Assembly (NCBI GenBank): GCA_028875855.1
Contig: JAGWVA010000012.1
Coordinates: 1 to 64,000, forward strand
Length of the DNA: 64,000 bases
Source of the DNA: Paracoccaceae bacterium
GTDB lineage: Bacteria; Pseudomonadota; Alphaproteobacteria; Rhodobacterales; Rhodobacteraceae
Reading direction: 5' to 3'
The position numbers and the translations under genes are program-made. How positions within the stretch are numbered: the first letter of the stretch is position 1; each line of letters opens with the position of its first letter. Positions 3,375 through 10,122 of this stretch are shown in pieces. The notes under the pieces were generated by a model. The model did not search any database. It was given only the letters and a program-made list of their open reading frames with translations, and was not told the origin of the DNA.

Positions 3375-3437
3375 GGCGCCGCTTGCGGTTTGCCCGCGCG
3401 CCGGGGCATTGTGCCGCCGCTGACGAAGGGGGCTTTC

Positions 3438-4838
3438 ATGATTCCGGTGCGCGGATACGAAGGGCGGAAGGTTGCGGTTCTGGGGCTCGGCCGGTCGGGG
3501 CTTGCCACGGTGCGCGCGCTGCTGGCCGGGGGCGCTGAGACGCTTGCTTGGGACGACAGCCCCGAGGCGCGCGAGAAGGCCGAGGCCGCGGGGCTGACGC
3601 TGACCGATCTCACGCGCGAGCGGGCCTTCGAGGGGGTGGCCGGGCTGATCGTGTCGCCCGGCATTCCGCATCTTTACCCGGCGCCGCACAGGATCATCGC
3701 CCGCGCGCTGGAACTGGGCGTGCCGGTGGACAACGACATCGGCCTGTTCTTCCGGTCCTTCGCGACGCCGGACTGGGACCATTTCGACCAGATGCCGAAG
3801 GTCGTCGCGGTGACGGGGTCGAATGGCAAGTCCACCACCACGGCGCTGATCCACCACATCCTTCGGGAGGCGGGGCGGCCAACGCAGATGGCGGGCAACA
3901 TCGGCCGTGGCGTGCTTGACCTCGATCCCGCGCGGGAGGGAGAGGTCGTGGTGCTGGAACTGTCCTCTTACCAGAGCGAGCTGGCCCGCGCGCTGACGCC
4001 CGATGTGGCGGTGTTCACCAACCTCTCGCCCGATCATCTCGACCGGCACGGGGGTATGGGGGGGTATTTCGCGGCCAAGCGGCGGCTGTTCTCCGAAGGG
4101 GGGCCCGACCGCGCGGTGGTCGGCGTGGACGAGGTCGAGGGGCGCTTTCTGGCGAACCAGTTGGGCGAAGGGGCCGAGGACGACCGGGTGATCCGCATCT
4201 CGTCGGGCCAGAAGCTCGACCGGCACGGCTGGGCGGTCTTTGCGCGCAAGGGGTATCTGGCCGAATGGCGGCGGGGCAAGCAGGTCGCGTCGATCGATCT
4301 GCGCGCGGTGGGCGGGCTGCCGGGGGCGCATAACCACCAGAACGCCTGCGCGGCCTATGCGGCCGTGCGAACGCTGGGCCTTGCGCCCCGCCAGATCGAG
4401 GAGGCCTTCCACAGCTTCGAAGGTCTGCCGCACCGCAGCCAACTGGTGGGAGAGCGGGGCGGGGTGCGTTTTGTCAACGACTCCAAGGCCACCAACGTGG
4501 ACAGTGCCGCCAAGGCGTTGCAGGCCTTTCCGCGCATCCGCTGGATCGCGGGGGGGTTGGGAAAGGATGGCGGGCTGCACGGGATCGAGCCGCACCTGAC
4601 CGCGGTCGTGAAGGCCTACCTGATCGGCCATTCGGCGCGCGACTTCGCGTTGCAGATCGGCGAGACGCCGCATGAAATCTGCGAGACGATGGAGCGCGCG
4701 GTGGCGCAGGCGGCGGCCGAGGCGGAACCGGGCGACACGGTGCTGCTGGCCCCGGCCGCGGCGAGTTTCGACCAGTATCCGAACTTCGAGAAGCGTGGCG
4801 AGGATTTCACGGCAAGAGTGCGGGCATTGATCGGCTGA
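3438..4838 (+). CDS. murD: UDP-N-acetylmuramoylalanine--D-glutamate ligase MurD
   Basis: 466 aa. Cytoplasmic ligase adding D-Glu to UDP-MurNAc-L-Ala. The ATG at 3438 has GAAGGGGG just upstream and gives [21 protein letters not shown], with the nucleotide-binding GLGRSG of domain 1 at 16-21; an in-frame extension to 3390 has no better signal. P-loop GSNGKSTT at 127-134; [11 protein letters not shown] and the C-terminal domain NDSKATN motif are present. It is separated from mraY by the GFA gene and from ftsW by asd on the other strand. An 11-bp hairpin at 4987-5013 lies between its stop and the convergent asd gene. Confidence 0.97.
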
Positions 4839-4986
4839 GCCCTGCGGCCCGGCGCGCGGGGGCTGGGCCAAACCGAGATTGGCGTGAGATGCCGCGCCGG
4901 GACACCCTTGGCCCGCCGATACCGGCGCGGGTGGGTCGAGCGCATGCCGCCGTGTCGTTCCGCCCGCCTCTGGCCGTCGGGGTCAA

Positions 4987-5013
4987 GCGCGGCGGTGGGT
5001 TGCACCGCCGCGC
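4987..5013. terminator. Bidirectional terminator hairpin between murD and asd
   Basis: Perfect 11-bp inverted repeat GCGCGGCGGTG/CACCGCCGCGC with loop GGTTG, 17 bp beyond the asd stop and about 150 bp beyond the murD stop in a convergent intergenic region. There is no T-tract on either side, so Rho-independence is not assured. The rest of 4839-5029 shows no gene. Confidence 0.65.
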
Positions 5014-5029
5014 CGGGGCCGGTCCTGTC

Positions 5030-6088
5030 TTAACCGTGCAGCAGCGCCTCGGCGATCTGCACGGCGTTCAACGCGGCCCCCTTCAGAAGCTGGTCGCCCG
5101 CCACGAACAGCGCCAGCGTCCGCCCCGACGGGTCGCCCAGATCGCGGCGCAGGCGGCCCACTAGCACCTCATCGCGGCCCGAGGCCTCGGACGGCATGGG
5201 GAAGTGGTTGGCGGCGCGGTCATCGACCAGCGTGATCCCGGGGGCGGCAGCCAGCAGGGCGCGGGCGTCCTCAACCGCCACGGGGCTGTCGAATTCCACG
5301 CTGGCGGCGATGGCATGCGCGCGCATGACGGGCACGCGGATGCAGGTGATCCCGATCGGCAGGTCGGGCGTGCCAAGGATGCGGCGGGTTTCCGCGATCA
5401 CCTTGGTTTCCTCGCCGTTGTAGCCGGTCTCGGGGTCCATCGCGGCGTTGTGGCTGAACAGGTTGAACGCATAGGGATGCGGCAGCACCTTCGGCGTGAA
5501 GCTCTCGCCCGCCAGCGCCGCGGCGGTGGCCTGACGCAGCTCTTCCATCGCCGCGGCGCCCGCGCCCGAGGCGGCCTGATAGGTGGCGGCCTGGATGCGG
5601 CGGATGGGGTGGGCGCGATGCAGCGGGGCCAGCGCCACCGTCAGGATCGCCGCCACGCAGTTCGGGTTGGCGATGATGCCGCCATGCCGGGCGAGGGCGG
5701 GGGCGTTCACCTCGGGCACCACCAAGGGCACGGTCTCGTCCATCCGGAAGGCCGATGAGTTGTCGATCACCGTCGCGCCCGCGGCCACCGCCAGCGGCGC
5801 GAACTGCCGCGAGACCGAGGCGCCCGCGGAAAACAGCGCGAAATCGACGCCGCGGAAGCTTGCCGGGCTGAGCGGCGCGATCTCGATCTCCTGGCCGCGG
5901 AAGGGCAGGCGGCGCCCGGCCGAGCGCGGCGAGGCCAGCAGGCGCAGATCGCCCACGGGGAAGCCGCGGCGCTCGAGGCAGCCGATCAGTTCCACCCCCA
6001 CAGCGCCGGTGGCGCCGACGATGGCAACGGTGGGCTGCGCCGGGTGACGGTCGCGGGCGGGGCGGGACAGGGCAAGGGTATCGGACAT
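5030..6088 (-). CDS. asd: Aspartate-semialdehyde dehydrogenase
   Basis: 352 aa. It reduces beta-aspartyl phosphate to aspartate semialdehyde with NADPH, the branch point to threonine/methionine and to lysine/diaminopimelate, and so supplies the DAP that MurE uses. NADP loop GATGAVG at 25-31; catalytic cysteine in NPNC (C144); SGAG motif after TYQAA. There is an N-terminal extension of about 18 residues before the Rossmann strand. The gene sits inside the dcw cluster on the opposite strand between murD and ftsW. The start is the ATG at 6086-6088, with a weak purine-rich site (GCAGAGAG) upstream. It has its own leader peptide and candidate attenuator at 6138-6253. Confidence 0.95.
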   Translation of the reverse strand: MSDTLALSRPARDRHPAQPTVAIVGATGAVGVELIGCLERRGFPVGDLRLLASPRSAGRRLPFRGQEIEIAPLSPASFRGVDFALFSAGASVSRQFAPLAVAAGATVIDNSSAFRMDETVPLVVPEVNAPALARHGGIIANPNCVAAILTVALAPLHRAHPIRRIQAATYQAASGAGAAAMEELRQATAAALAGESFTPKVLPHPYAFNLFSHNAAMDPETGYNGEETKVIAETRRILGTPDLPIGITCIRVPVMRAHAIAASVEFDSPVAVEDARALLAAAPGITLVDDRAANHFPMPSEASGRDEVLVGRLRRDLGDPSGRTLALFVAGDQLLKGAALNAVQIAEALLHG

Positions 6089-6137
6089 GGTTGCTCTCTG
6101 CTGGTTTGGGGAGAGAGCGGGGGGGTGTTCACCTGAT

Positions 6138-6218
6138 GGCCCCGTCCCTCTCGGGGGGGCCTCGGGGTCTGCCCGCTTCTACCGCGCGCGCCCGACAACC
6201 CCCGCCGAAGCGGTGGTT
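6138..6218 (-). promoter_or_regulatory. Candidate threonine attenuator hairpins upstream of asd
   Basis: Reading the minus strand, hairpin 1:2 pairs 6218-6210 with 6205-6197 around a UUCG tetraloop (8 of 9 pairs); its 5' arm contains the last two Thr codons of the leader peptide. Hairpin 3:4 pairs GGCCCC (6161-6156) with GGGGCC (6143-6138), extended by CCC/GGG around GAGA. The G-rich arm 2 (6203-6197) can instead pair with GACCCC at 6169-6164 or with the C-run of arm 3. This is the layout of a ribosome-stalling attenuator. The 3:4 hairpin is not followed by a U-run, so the termination mechanism is uncertain. Confidence 0.6.
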
Positions 6219-6253
6219 TTCGTCGTGCGTTTCGTGGTCGCGATCCGGGTCAT
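6179..6253 (-). CDS. Threonine-rich leader peptide of asd (24 aa)
   Basis: ATG at 6253-6251, stop TAG at 6181-6179, 24 codons. Thr occupies positions 2, 6, 7, 10, 11, 13 and 14 (7 of 24), with Ile4 and Val19-20; the pattern resembles the thr operon leader peptide of enterobacteria. No Shine-Dalgarno precedes it, and the -10 element ends only 6 nt before the ATG, so translation is probably leaderless, as known for trpL of Sinorhizobium. The stop is 90 nt before the asd start, and attenuator-like hairpins lie in and after the reading frame. Inferred role: sensing charged tRNA-Thr to control asd. Too short for usual gene callers. Confidence 0.7.
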   Translation of the reverse strand: MTRIATTKRTTKTTASAGVVGRAR

Positions 6254-6259
6254 GAGGCG

Positions 6260-6288
6260 GCGCTAGCTGGGCCGCACGGTCGCGTCAA
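6260..6288 (-). promoter_or_regulatory. asd leader promoter
   Basis: Minus strand: -35 TTGACG (6288-6283), 17-bp spacer, -10 TAGCGC (6265-6260). The predicted transcription start coincides with the A of the leader-peptide ATG (6253), giving a leaderless mRNA. The -35 is near consensus; the -10 is weak, as often in high-GC alphaproteobacteria. Confidence 0.55.
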
Positions 6289-6340
6289 GTCCCCGGCCGC
6301 CCCGTGCATGTCCTTGCGGGGGGGATTGACGCCAAAGTGC

Positions 6341-6361
6341 CACAACCGGGGCCGGATTGTG
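6341..6361. promoter_or_regulatory. Dyad upstream of ftsW
   Basis: CACAA-CCGG-GG-CCGG-A-TTGTG, an almost perfect palindrome with one unpaired base, lies 77 bp before the ftsW ATG and beside the asd promoter. It could be an operator for either gene or an mRNA hairpin. A TTGACG at 6326-6331 lies just upstream, but I see no convincing -10 at normal spacing. I see no gene in 6254-6437. Confidence 0.35.
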
Positions 6362-6437
6362 CTGGCCATGCTGCGGGGCTTGGGCTAGAGTTTGCAGGAG
6401 ATCCGGATAACCGGGCAGACAGGCAGAGCGATATCCG

Positions 6438-7601
6438 ATGACAGAGATGGTGTATGGCACCGTGCCCGTGCGTGCGGGCGAGCCGGTCCTTTCCCGCTGG
6501 TGGCGGACGGTTGACCGATGGTCGCTGGCCTGCGTGCTTCTGCTGTTCGGTCTGGGGCTTCTGCTGGGCCTTGCCGCCTCGGTCCCGCTCGCCTCGCGCA
6601 ACGGGCTTCCGCCGTTCCATTATGTCGATCGGCAGGCGTTCTTCGGCATCTTCTCGATGGCGGCGATGTTCCTGACCTCGCTCGTCTCGCCCGACCGGGT
6701 CCGGCGTATCGGCGTGGTCGGGTTTCTGCTGACCTTCGTTGCGCTCGCGCTGCTGCCCGTTTTCGGGTCGAGCTTCGGCAAGGGGGCGATCCGGTGGTAT
6801 TCGCTGGGCTTCACCTCGGTCCAGCCGTCCGAATTCGTCAAGCCCTGCTTCGTCGTGCTGTGCGGCTGGCTCATGGCCGCCAGCCAGGAGATCAACGGCC
6901 CGCCCGGCAAGCTTGCGTCCTTCGGGGTGACCATCGTCGTCGTGGGCTTTCTTGCGATGCAGCCGGATTTCGGCCAGTCGGCGCTGGTCTTGTTTGCCTG
7001 GGGCGTGATGTATTTCGTGGCGGGCGCCCCGATCGTGCTGCTGGCGGGCGTTGCCATGCTGGTCGGTGGCGGGTCGGTGCTGGCCTATAACTTCTCGGAC
7101 CACTTTGCCAAGCGGATCAACATGTTCATGTCCGCCGACCTCGATCCGCGCACGCAGGTGGGCTATGCCATCAACGCGATCCAGGAGGGCGGGTTCTTCG
7201 GGACCGGCGTGGGGCAGGGGCAGGTCAAGTGGCAGTTGCCCGATGCCCATACCGACTTCATCATCGCGGTGGCCGCCGAGGAATACGGAACCCTCATGGT
7301 GGTCTTCATCCTTGGGCTTTACACGACCATCCTCGTGCGGTCGCTGACCCGGCTGATGCGCGAACGCGATCCCTTCGTGCGCATCGCGGGCACCGGGCTT
7401 GCGTGCATCTTCGCGGTGCAGGCGCTGGTCAACATGTCGGTTGCCGTGCGCCTTCTGCCGGCAAAGGGCATGACGCTGCCCTTCATCAGCTACGGCGGGT
7501 CGTCGCTCATCGCGGCGGGGATCACGGTCGGGATGCTGCTTGCCCTCACGCGGACCCGGCCGCAGGGTGACATCGGCGAAATCTTCAAGCGGGGCCGGTA
7601 A
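6438..7601 (+). CDS. ftsW: Lipid II polymerase / cell-division SEDS protein FtsW
   Basis: 387 aa. Inner-membrane SEDS glycosyltransferase of the divisome that polymerises septal peptidoglycan with its partner FtsI. A cytoplasmic N-terminus of about 35 residues is followed by about ten membrane segments. SEDS hallmarks: [17 protein letters not shown] in the middle and [17 protein letters not shown] near the C-terminus. It is the first gene of the second dcw block; its stop TAA overlaps the murG ATG by one base. RodA has a similar fold, but the dcw context supports FtsW. Confidence 0.95.
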
Positions 7602-8716
7602 TGGCGGGCAGGGCGAAACAGGGCCGTCTGCTGCTGATCGCGGCCGGCGGGACCGGTGGGCATATGTTCCCCGCCCAGGCGCTGGCCGAGGCGATGGTGC
7701 GCCGCGGCTGGCGCGTGAAGCTTTCGACGGACGCCCGCGGCGCGCGCTACACCGGCGGCTTTCCCCATGTCGTGGCGGTCGAGCAGGTCGCCTCTGCCAC
7801 CTTCGCGCGGGGCGGGCTGCTGGCCAAGCTGGCGGCGCCGTTCCGCATCGCGGGGGGCGTGATCGGGGCGATCCTCGCCATGCTGCGCGACCGGCCGGCG
7901 GTCGTCGTGGGCTTTGGCGGCTATCCGACGATCCCGGCGCTGTCGGCGGCAACCGTCCTTGGCCTGCCGCGCATGATTCACGAACAGAACGGCGTGCTTG
8001 GCCGGGTCAACACCGCCTTTGCCCGGCGCGTCGATGCGATTGCCTGCGGCACCTGGCCCACGGCGCTGCCGCAGGGCGCCAAGGGCACGCATACCGGCAA
8101 TCCCGTCCGCGCCGCCGTTCTGGACCGGGCGGGCGCGGCCTATATCGCGCCGGGCGACTATCCGATGAGCTTGCTGGTCTTCGGCGGGAGCCAGGGCGCG
8201 CGCATCTTGTCCGACGTGGTGCCCGCGGCCGTCGCGGCACTTCCCGCAGGCCTGCGCCAGCATCTGCGCGTCGCCCAGCAGGCGCGCGAAGAAGACGTCG
8301 CGCGGGTCCGCGCGGCCTATGACGCCGCCGGCATCCGCGCCGAGGTGCAGCCCTTCTTCACCGACATTCCCCGCCGCCTGAGCGAGGCGCAGCTTGTCGT
8401 CTCGCGCGCGGGGGCATCGTCGGTCGCCGATATCAGCGTGATCGGCCGCCCGTCGATCCTTGTCCCCTTCGCCGCCGCGACGGGCGATCACCAGACCGCG
8501 AATGCCCGCGGGCTTGTCGATGCCGGTGCGGCGATCCTTATCCCCGAATCCGCGCTTGACCCCGCGAGCCTTGCCAAGCAGATCGAGACGGTGCTCAGCC
8601 AGCCCGTCGGAGCGAACCGCATGGCCGCCGCCGCGCTGAACTTCGGTCGCCCCGATGCGACCGAGCGGCTGGTCGAGATGGTCGAGCGCCTTGCAGAGAA
8701 AGACGCCGGAAAATGA
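7601..8716 (+). CDS. murG: UDP-GlcNAc:lipid I N-acetylglucosaminyltransferase MurG
   Basis: 371 aa GT28 glycosyltransferase on the cytoplasmic face of the inner membrane; it converts lipid I to lipid II. The GGTGGH motif of the N-terminal Rossmann domain is at residues 16-21, [11 protein letters not shown] follows, and GGSQGAR opens the C-terminal UDP-GlcNAc domain. The start shares its A with the ftsW stop (TAATG), and the end overlaps the murC start by four bases, indicating coupled translation. Confidence 0.97.
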
Positions 8717-10122
8717 ACGCAGTCACGAAACTCCCCGGGGAACTGGGCCCCATCCACTTCGTCGGCATCGGTGGCATCGGCATGTCCGGCATCGCCGAGG
8801 TGCTGATGACGCTGGGCTACACCGTGCAAGGGTCGGACGCGCGCGCCTCGAAGATCACCGAGCGGCTGGTCGCTCTCGGGGCCACCTTCTTCGAAGGCCA
8901 GAAGGCCGAGAACATCGGAGATGCGGCGGTCGTCGTGATCTCGTCGGCGATCAAGAAGGGCAATCCCGAGCTCGAGGAAGCCCGCCGCCGCAAGCTGCCG
9001 GTGGTGCGCCGCGCCGAGATGCTGGCCGAACTGATGCGGATGAAGTCCAACATCGCCATCGCCGGCACGCACGGGAAGACCACGACGACGACGATGGTGG
9101 CGACGCTGCTCGACAAGGGCGGGTTCGATCCGACCGTCATCAACGGCGGGATCATCCATGCCTACGGGTCGAATGCGCGCGCAGGCGCGGGCGAATGGAT
9201 GGTGGTCGAGGCCGATGAAAGCGACGGGTCGTTCAACCGCCTGCCCGCAACCATCGCGGTCGTCACCAACATCGACCCCGAACACATGGAGCACTGGGGC
9301 AGCTTCGACGCGCTGCGGCAGGGCTTTACCGATTTCGTGTCGAACATCCCCTTCTACGGGCTTGCCGTCTGCTGCACCGACCATCCCGAGGTGCAGGCGC
9401 TGGTGGGCCGCGTCACGGACCGGCGCATCGTGACCTTCGGGTTCAACGCTCAGGCCGACGTTCGGGGCCTCAACCTGACGTTTTCGGGCGGCGTGGCGCG
9501 CTTCGATGTGGCGCTGCGCAACGAGGACGCGGTGATCGAGGGGTGCAGCCTCCCAATGCCAGGCGTCCATAACGTCTCGAACGCGCTAGGCGCCATCGCG
9601 GTCGCCCGCCACCTGGGCATGAAGCGCGAGGAGATCCGCGAGGCGCTGGCGAATTTCGCAGGCGTCAACCGCCGCTTCACCAAGGTGGCCGAGGTGAACG
9701 GCGTCACCATCATCGACGATTACGGCCACCACCCGGTCGAGATCGCCGCCGTCCTGAAGGCGGCGCGTCAGGCGGTGTCGGAACATGCCGGCGCGCGGGT
9801 GATCGCCGTGCACCAGCCCCACCGCTACACGCGCCTTCACGCGCTGTTCGAGGATTTCTGCACCTGCTTCAACGAGGCCGACGTGGTCGCCATCGCCGAG
9901 GTCTATGCCGCAGGCGAGGACCCGATCCCCGGCGCCTCGCGCGACGATCTTGTGGCGGGCCTGATTGCCCACGGCCATCGCCATGCCCGCGCGATCCTCG
10001 ATGAGGCCGACCTTGCCCGACTGGTGAAAGAGCAGGCCCGGCCCGGCGACATCGTCGTCTGCCTCGGGGCGGGCACGATCTCCACCTGGGCCCACGGCCT
10101 GCCGGAGCGGATGAAGGCATGA
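8713..10122 (+). CDS. murC: UDP-N-acetylmuramate--L-alanine ligase MurC
   Basis: 469 aa cytoplasmic ligase adding the first L-Ala to UDP-MurNAc. The nucleotide-sugar loop GIGGIGMSG begins near residue 18; P-loop GTHGKTTT at 118-125; [11 protein letters not shown] and [10 protein letters not shown] follow in canonical order. ATGA overlaps join it to murG upstream and to the DUF2484 gene downstream. Confidence 0.97.

Follow-up and report, generated by a model that had tools for sequence, protein, structure and literature searches.

The accessory aspartate-semialdehyde dehydrogenase gene (asd) on the minus strand of the window (the whole 64,000-nt stretch of DNA that was analysed) is probably controlled by a ribosome-mediated attenuator, in which a leader peptide senses threonyl-tRNA, perhaps along with Lys (and Met or Ile in certain relatives), and governs the translation of asd through alternative RNA pairings. 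Comparison with related genomes establishes, at the level of sequence, the conservation of the Thr codons, the position of the promoter, the lack of a Shine-Dalgarno (SD) sequence before the leader, and five cognate pairings between RNA arms. If the reading is true, a leader-peptide sensor would be switched from transcription to translation control by two added RNA arms, which keep the arm number even, in GC-rich bacteria with a hairpin lacking a U-tract; in addition, a Thr-responsive regulon (asd, short thrS) would be added to the Alphaproteobacteria.

Leader reading frame and promoter

The gene, the leader, and its promoter have the following positions.

5030..6088, minus strand: asd, aspartate-semialdehyde dehydrogenase, 352 aa, accessory paralogue (TIGR01296, NF011456)
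6179..6253, minus strand: leader open reading frame (ORF) MTRIATTKRTTKTTASAGVVGRAR, without a preceding SD sequence (ORF translation and conservation)
6260..6288, minus strand: promoter TTGACG-N17-TAGCGC, the best -35/-10 pair within 45 nt upstream

The 24-codon frame with 7 Thr codons described in the earlier note was found at 6253..6179 on the minus strand in the ORF translation of the window, its stop lying 90 nt from the ATG of a gene identified as asd by TIGR01296. The TTGACG-N17-TAGCGC promoter is likewise present, its 3' end 6 nt 5' of the leader ATG, and transcription is predicted to start at the leader AUG or a few nucleotides away. Both hairpins recognized earlier, a UUCG-capped hairpin whose 5' arm includes the last two Thr codons, and a second G/C hairpin, appear in the predicted fold of the window.

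By itself, the leader of the window is unconvincing, because Thr-rich ORFs arise by chance, the fold is ordinary, and the promoter scan was empty. Four of the 367 ATG-started ORFs of 15 to 40 codons in the window (a count that includes nested starts) have at least six Thr and at least 25% Thr; the 172-nt whole fold has a z of -1.36 against shuffles, with 22 of 200 shuffles folding at least equally well; and the leader promoter is absent from the output of a generic consensus promoter scan. Thr richness alone was dropped as evidence in view of the other Thr-rich short ORFs, and the folding energy of the whole element against shuffles was uninformative. The leader rises above chance because leader, promoter spacing, and arms are all found again in relatives.

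An accessory asd paralogue with patchy distribution

The asd product scores 379 bits against TIGR01296 (cut-off, 324.2) and also matches NF011456. The source genome has two asd genes, the other copy being only 42% identical to that of the window. A close orthologue occurs in five of seven genus genomes, the source included (apparently split over contigs in one), and the other two carry only the other asd type; in the six copies of that type read in the genus, no leader of this kind was found. A 21-codon ORF with 5 Thr does lie upstream of two other-type copies (L089 and L090). Close matches were found in 18 of 394 family genomes (E <= 1e-100) and 28 of 385 class genomes (E <= 1e-95), and by this sequence comparison the window asd is a patchy accessory paralogue. 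Flanked by murD and ftsW, both of which run the other way, and with murG and murC farther out (window positions 3435-10122), it interrupts a cell-wall and division gene cluster, in which ftsW and murG score slightly under their curated cut-offs.

The asd tree has 80 rows and was midpoint rooted for drawing only, with long branches elsewhere in the tree; the first relatives search comprised the best 80 matches of a longer list, so no frequencies were drawn from it. One clade of 31 rows (support, 98/95) contains the window asd together with genes from the family of the window, Inquilinus, Acidisphaera, a metagenome-assembled genome (MAG) labelled Rhizobium, and others, and this taxonomic mixture suggests that the accessory asd moved horizontally. 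The leader was found in all 31 rows, in one of them (L001) as a partial copy because the contig begins inside it. Near the Litoreibacter asd locus, a SAM/SAH riboswitch match was also seen (L006, 3826-3876; RF01727, 45.5 bits against a gathering score of 40).

Conservation of the leader

The leader is present in all five genus members that carry the gene, and in 17/17 family orthologues with readable upstream DNA (18 genomes in total; the 18th orthologue, L100, begins at a contig end and stands outside the count). Reading by eye across the class gave a leader of this kind in 19 of 28 genomes, weak ones (L108, L112, and L122) included, and the remaining nine have no such leader or a cut contig (L127). 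In the family of G328, asd was matched in 19 of 79 genomes; eight of these 19 have the leader (L107, L109, L139-L142, L144, and L145), and it is absent in ten (L146-L155), L143 being outside this reading. Six new leaders from that family were kept out of the leader counts, and the family of G353 gave nothing new for the leader set. The element, proposed earlier as an asd attenuator of Rhodobacterales, is thus found there, as well as beyond that order, and the asd concerned is an accessory paralogue.

In 52 leaders (55 rows less three duplicates), 25.9% of the in-frame residues are Thr, whereas the two other reading frames give 1.4% and 1.7%; 48 of the leaders have at least four Thr, and L112 has only two. 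Lys accounts for 9.9% and internal Met for 4.4% of residues. The Thr codons comprise 207 ACC, 96 ACG, 11 ACA, and 10 ACT, so that they vary synonymously while Thr itself is kept. When the best -35/-10 pair was sought within 45 nt upstream of each leader, it ended 6-10 nt 5' of the leader ATG in 52/52, with a mean match of 7.7 of 12 positions, compared with 5.7 in shuffled sequence, and an SD-like sequence precedes the leader ORF in only 1/52. Leaderless initiation is therefore predicted throughout the leader set, and the leaderless Thr leader claimed for the window gains support from this comparison, as a prediction. In one Caulobacteraceae MAG (L014, 1284-1414), the peptide before asd reads TKRIAIAIRL, with Ile codons in place of Thr and one Thr left, which suggests that the sensed amino acid has changed there.

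Six RNA arms and their pairing

Downstream of the promoter, six arms were defined from alignment columns, because automatic picking of the 3:4 hairpin often gave the 4:5 helix instead; they were drawn after looking at the data.

6209..6223, minus strand: arm 1, codons 11-15 with Thr codons 11, 13, and 14; partner, arm 2 (1:2 z -5.1, 33 leaders)
6182..6207, minus strand: arm 2, 3' part of the leader ORF; partner, arm 1 or 3 (2:3 z -7.4)
6153..6172, minus strand: arm 3; partner, arm 2 or arm 4 (co-variation test)
6138..6152, minus strand: arm 4, 3' half of the second G/C hairpin; partner, arm 3 or 5 (4:5 z -5.7)
6106..6128, minus strand: arm 5, containing CCCCGCUCUCUC; pairs with arm 4 or hides arm 6 (co-variation test)
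6089..6105, minus strand: arm 6, purine-rich AGAGAG, the presumed asd SD region (5:6 z -5.8)

The span of 6138-6288 first assigned to the element covers the leader and the hairpins; the element itself reaches on to the asd start codon, where the AGAGAG of the window is a weak SD. In the window, the 2:3, 4:5, and 5:6 duplexes have energies of -27.0, -21.9, and -12.0 kcal/mol, respectively.

Pairing was assessed in an alignment-free way: for each arm pair, duplex energies within species were compared with those between species in 20,000 permutations. The SD-hairpin set comprised 40 of 55 leaders, leaving out 11 U-type rows, the duplicates L097 and L138, and the unclear L015 and L106, the last two being excluded from all arm-pair and SD-opening tests. 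In 33 leaders under 70% identical, all neighbouring pairs were better within species (1:2, z -5.1; 2:3, -7.4; 3:4, -9.8; 4:5, -5.7; 5:6, -5.8), each with a p of 5e-5, the minimum attainable with this number of permutations. Among the ten non-neighbouring pairs, eight had z values between -1.1 and +1.0 and no co-variation, 1:3 was weakly better within species (z -2.0, p 0.02), and 3:6 was worse than expected (z +2.5). The alternative hairpins upstream of asd described in the earlier note are supported by this comparison.

The pairing picture was the same in all 40 SD-hairpin leaders, with seven non-neighbouring pairs compared, and in the clade of the window alone (24 leaders, again with seven non-neighbouring pairs), in which the neighbouring pairs had z values of -4.6 to -7.8; L092, whose sequence was too short for the tree, was assigned to this clade because it comes from a genus member. 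Outside the clade, in 11 leaders used without thinning for similarity, 1:2, 2:3, and 3:4 hold, support is marginal for 4:5 (p 0.025) and for 5:6 (p 0.044), and 4:6 comes close to these two (p 0.052).

Alignment A2, a MAFFT alignment not fitted to 4:5, gave 16 double-changed cells for 1:2 plus 3:4 against 3.4 in shuffles (0/500 as high) and 12 against 6.1 for 2:3 plus 4:5 (0/500). Versions of the latter slid by -2 and +1 gave 18 and 15 such cells, above the 12 of the structure itself, and paired fewer cells (48% and 65% versus 74%); on A2, no more than 65% of cells are paired in the 4:5 helix. Support from A2 is thus strong for 1:2 plus 3:4 and weaker for 2:3 plus 4:5. A compensatory change can be seen by eye in L130, where arm 4 reads GGUCGGGG for GGACGGGG and arm 5 reads CCCGACC for CCCGUCC. 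Together, the co-variation and the A2 counts support mutually exclusive hairpins, the first of which overlaps the control codons.

Proposed mechanism

In the proposed mechanism, the mRNA would start at the leader AUG or nearby, and the six arms would form a chain that begins at the Thr codons in arm 1 and ends with arm 6 at the asd ribosome-binding site. When charged tRNA-Thr is ample, the ribosome would reach the leader stop and cover arm 2, because the stop codon lies 3' of this arm; 3:4 and then 5:6 would form, hiding the asd ribosome-binding site, and the switch would be off. When tRNA-Thr is scarce, the ribosome would stall at the Thr codons and cover arm 1; 2:3 and then 4:5 would form, leaving arm 6 free, and asd would be translated. 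An untranslated leader would fold into 1:2, 3:4, and 5:6 and would also be off.

We infer leader translation, the starvation response, and the order of folding from the arrangement of codons and arms. In a folding model in which the ribosome edge was assumed to be 12 nt away from where the A-site codon starts, the 4:5 pairing was predicted to form ahead of the synthesis of arm 6 in a mean fraction of 0.79. With arm 3 taken, a fraction of 0.54 of the SD region was predicted to be unpaired in the 40 leaders, versus 0.38 otherwise, and in the window the two values were 0.56 and 0.35; this opening exceeded 0.05 in 31/40 leaders and was at most 0.05 in 9/40, and the SD shift from equilibrium folding is only moderate. 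A putative SD-hiding hairpin with an alternative partner that would free the SD, the feature of a translational attenuator, is found in these leaders. Output is inferred to lie at translation rather than Rho-dependent termination, since hairpin 3:4 in the window is without a U-tract.

Alternative readings and the terminator version

A broader reading, possible if somewhat doubtful and compatible with the Thr relay, is that the leader responds to several members of the aspartate family of amino acids (Thr, Lys, Met, and Ile) rather than to Thr alone. The shares of Lys and internal Met given above (9.9% and 4.4%) fit this reading, as do the Lys codon kept directly before the last Thr pair in 34/40 leaders, the MTKTMTTKTTA-like leaders of L099, L130, L131, and L136 in the family of the window, and the IAIAI of one Caulobacteraceae leader. 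However, Thr is by far the top leader residue (25.9%) and fills most arm 1 positions, and the AAA/AAG codons may persist for other reasons.

Attenuation at transcription, with an intrinsic or Rho-dependent stop at 3:4 under ample Thr and a minor part for arms 5 and 6, appears unlikely for the window, yet a terminator form is real in one clade. This U-type clade (11 tree rows, Bradyrhizobium included; support, 100/99) has 8-9 T within 10 nt after the hairpin in 10/10 leaders listed; its arm pairing was read from folds, and around the asd start, four leaders have no hairpin and three a long palindrome. In addition, 5-7 T follow the hairpin in 10/40 SD-hairpin leaders, and Rho-dependent uORF attenuation has been proposed for a Sinorhizobium meliloti DUF1127 gene in the accessible part of PMC12218461. 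In the window, by contrast, only 2 T occur in the 10 nt after the second G/C hairpin, which has no U-tract, and a consensus scan of the window found no minus-strand terminator; moreover, a terminator alone leaves the co-variation of 4:5 and 5:6 unexplained. The earlier suggestion of an amino-acid attenuator stands as to kind, and a terminator-type output is not supported for this locus on the present evidence. A U-rich stretch and an SD hairpin do occur together in several leaders (e.g., L105, L113, L132, and L136), so that the output may be mixed. In the 80-row tree, the U-type clade is nested within the SD-hairpin forms, beside homologues that have no leader, so that the terminator version may be the derived one. 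Relay and terminator would be sister designs on related genes, which makes attenuator evolution directly testable.

An action in trans like that of trpL in S. meliloti, by the leader peptide or by leader RNA set free, is improbable: the predicted leaderless start and the conserved TTKTTA core do recall the trpL case (rnTrpL and peTrpL), but no terminator for release of a small RNA (sRNA) was found in the window, and the Thr codons vary synonymously while the RNA pairing is kept. A chance ORF with functionless G/C-rich hairpins, to which the 4/367 Thr-rich short ORFs and the whole-fold z of -1.36 might point, can be dismissed almost entirely in view of the leader in 17/17 readable family orthologues, the promoter position in 52/52, and the five co-varying arm pairs.

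Relation to known systems

In gammaproteobacteria, thrL encodes a short Thr-rich leader peptide with alternative hairpins, and thrABC lies downstream. The threonyl-tRNA relay proposed here resembles thrL in its Thr-codon leader peptide, its alternative RNA hairpins, and an aspartate-family gene downstream. Unlike thrL, the asd leader is predicted to be leaderless, would control asd rather than thrABC, would have SD access through two extra arms as its output, and has no Rfam match. No Rfam match at the gathering score was found in the window; a permissive search returned five matches at 6000-6400, all far under the gathering score, and 11 relatives gave no match with E <= 1 inside the leader. 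In L010 (1420-1464), a sub-threshold Rfam match lies between the hairpin and asd.

T-boxes sense tRNA directly. In Actinobacteria, ileS T-boxes and leuA LEU elements hide the SD under amino-acid control, the Leu codon run of the LEU element pairing directly with the SD (PMC1262725, available text). The asd leader would be like these in placing the SD under amino-acid control by means of a hairpin or stem that covers it, whereas a six-arm chain is not described for them in the accessible part of that article.

Another comparable case is SEP5 of S. meliloti, a small ORF that contains six Thr codons and three Lys codons and lies in the 5'-UTR of a gene named 'aspartate dehydrogenase' (PMC10117765, 2023). 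According to the portion of the article at hand, its translation was detected by Ribo-seq and Western blotting, its conservation was reported in Sinorhizobium only, and its authors propose that regulation is post-transcriptional and that SEP5 may be a leader peptide; SEP5 and the asd leader can be likened by description, and this portion gives no RNA structure or relay for SEP5. In S. meliloti, trpL/rnTrpL is described as a leaderless leader ORF subject to transcription attenuation that yields an sRNA. The predicted likeness is a leaderless leader ORF in an alphaproteobacterial attenuator; unlike the asd leader, trpL belongs to a Trp gene, with transcription attenuation and an sRNA product. 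The uORFC-8-2 motif, a Cys-codon leader upstream of cysS in Rhodobacterales, is another candidate for ribosome-mediated attenuation in the same bacterial order, with codons that fit the gene (PMC8632094, available text); it differs in its Cys codons, in cysS, and in being described with transcriptional read-through. For S. meliloti, the accessible part of PMC12218461 describes attenuation by a uORF at a DUF1127 gene.

A Thr relay on asd seems little described so far. The literature covered, in which subscription journals are thinly represented and absence is thus unproven, held no Thr leader relay on alphaproteobacterial asd or thrS beyond the SEP5 remark, and the available portions of PMC2965389, PMC3766115, and PMC4842269 contain nothing on asd.

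A wider family of leaders

A covariance model built from 20 leaders (R1) gave 61 matches in 50/385 class genomes (E <= 1e-3), the window among them, under strict search filters with which weak matches are lost. The downstream genes were inspected at 35 matched loci, two of which (L170 and L185) are cut, with the gene partly read. At 10/35 loci (L166, L171, L178, L183, L184, and L187-L191), a short threonyl-tRNA synthetase-like ORF follows a leader with hairpins in the same style, most of these leaders carrying a Thr run, e.g., MHRVAHLCTTTTTTTRFGGPDGVVMR. The four short threonyl-tRNA synthetases tested all reached the TIGR00418 cut-off, and the three scanned against Pfam have catalytic and anticodon-binding domains only, the N-terminal domains being missing. 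Further asd types follow at L168, L172 (HMM-tested), L179, L193, and L194 (a weak leader). Before dapA-like genes (L197, HMM-tested; L200, L202, and L204, by eye), the hairpin chassis recurs and the leaders have Lys codons near the control position, with KK in 2/4. Small DUF1127-like genes lie after four leaders on this chassis that contain MTR (L177, L186, L192, and L196), with L192 just below the Pfam cut-off for DUF1127 and the other three assigned by eye; the published DUF1127 uORF attenuator of S. meliloti may be related to these leaders.

We put forward tentatively, as a reading that falls somewhat short of probable, that Alphaproteobacteria share a modular six-arm chassis, in which a stall in a leaderless leader would be relayed to the gene start, the codon run would be swapped per gene (Thr for asd and short thrS, Lys for dapA), and the whole would travel with accessory genes between families; the Bradyrhizobium-like terminator version would be a shortened derivative. 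Three R1 matches (L198, L199, and L201) look like chance and were set aside. Three others (L195, L203, and L205) are leaders that, by eye, stand before a GNAT-like gene and ABC transporter genes.
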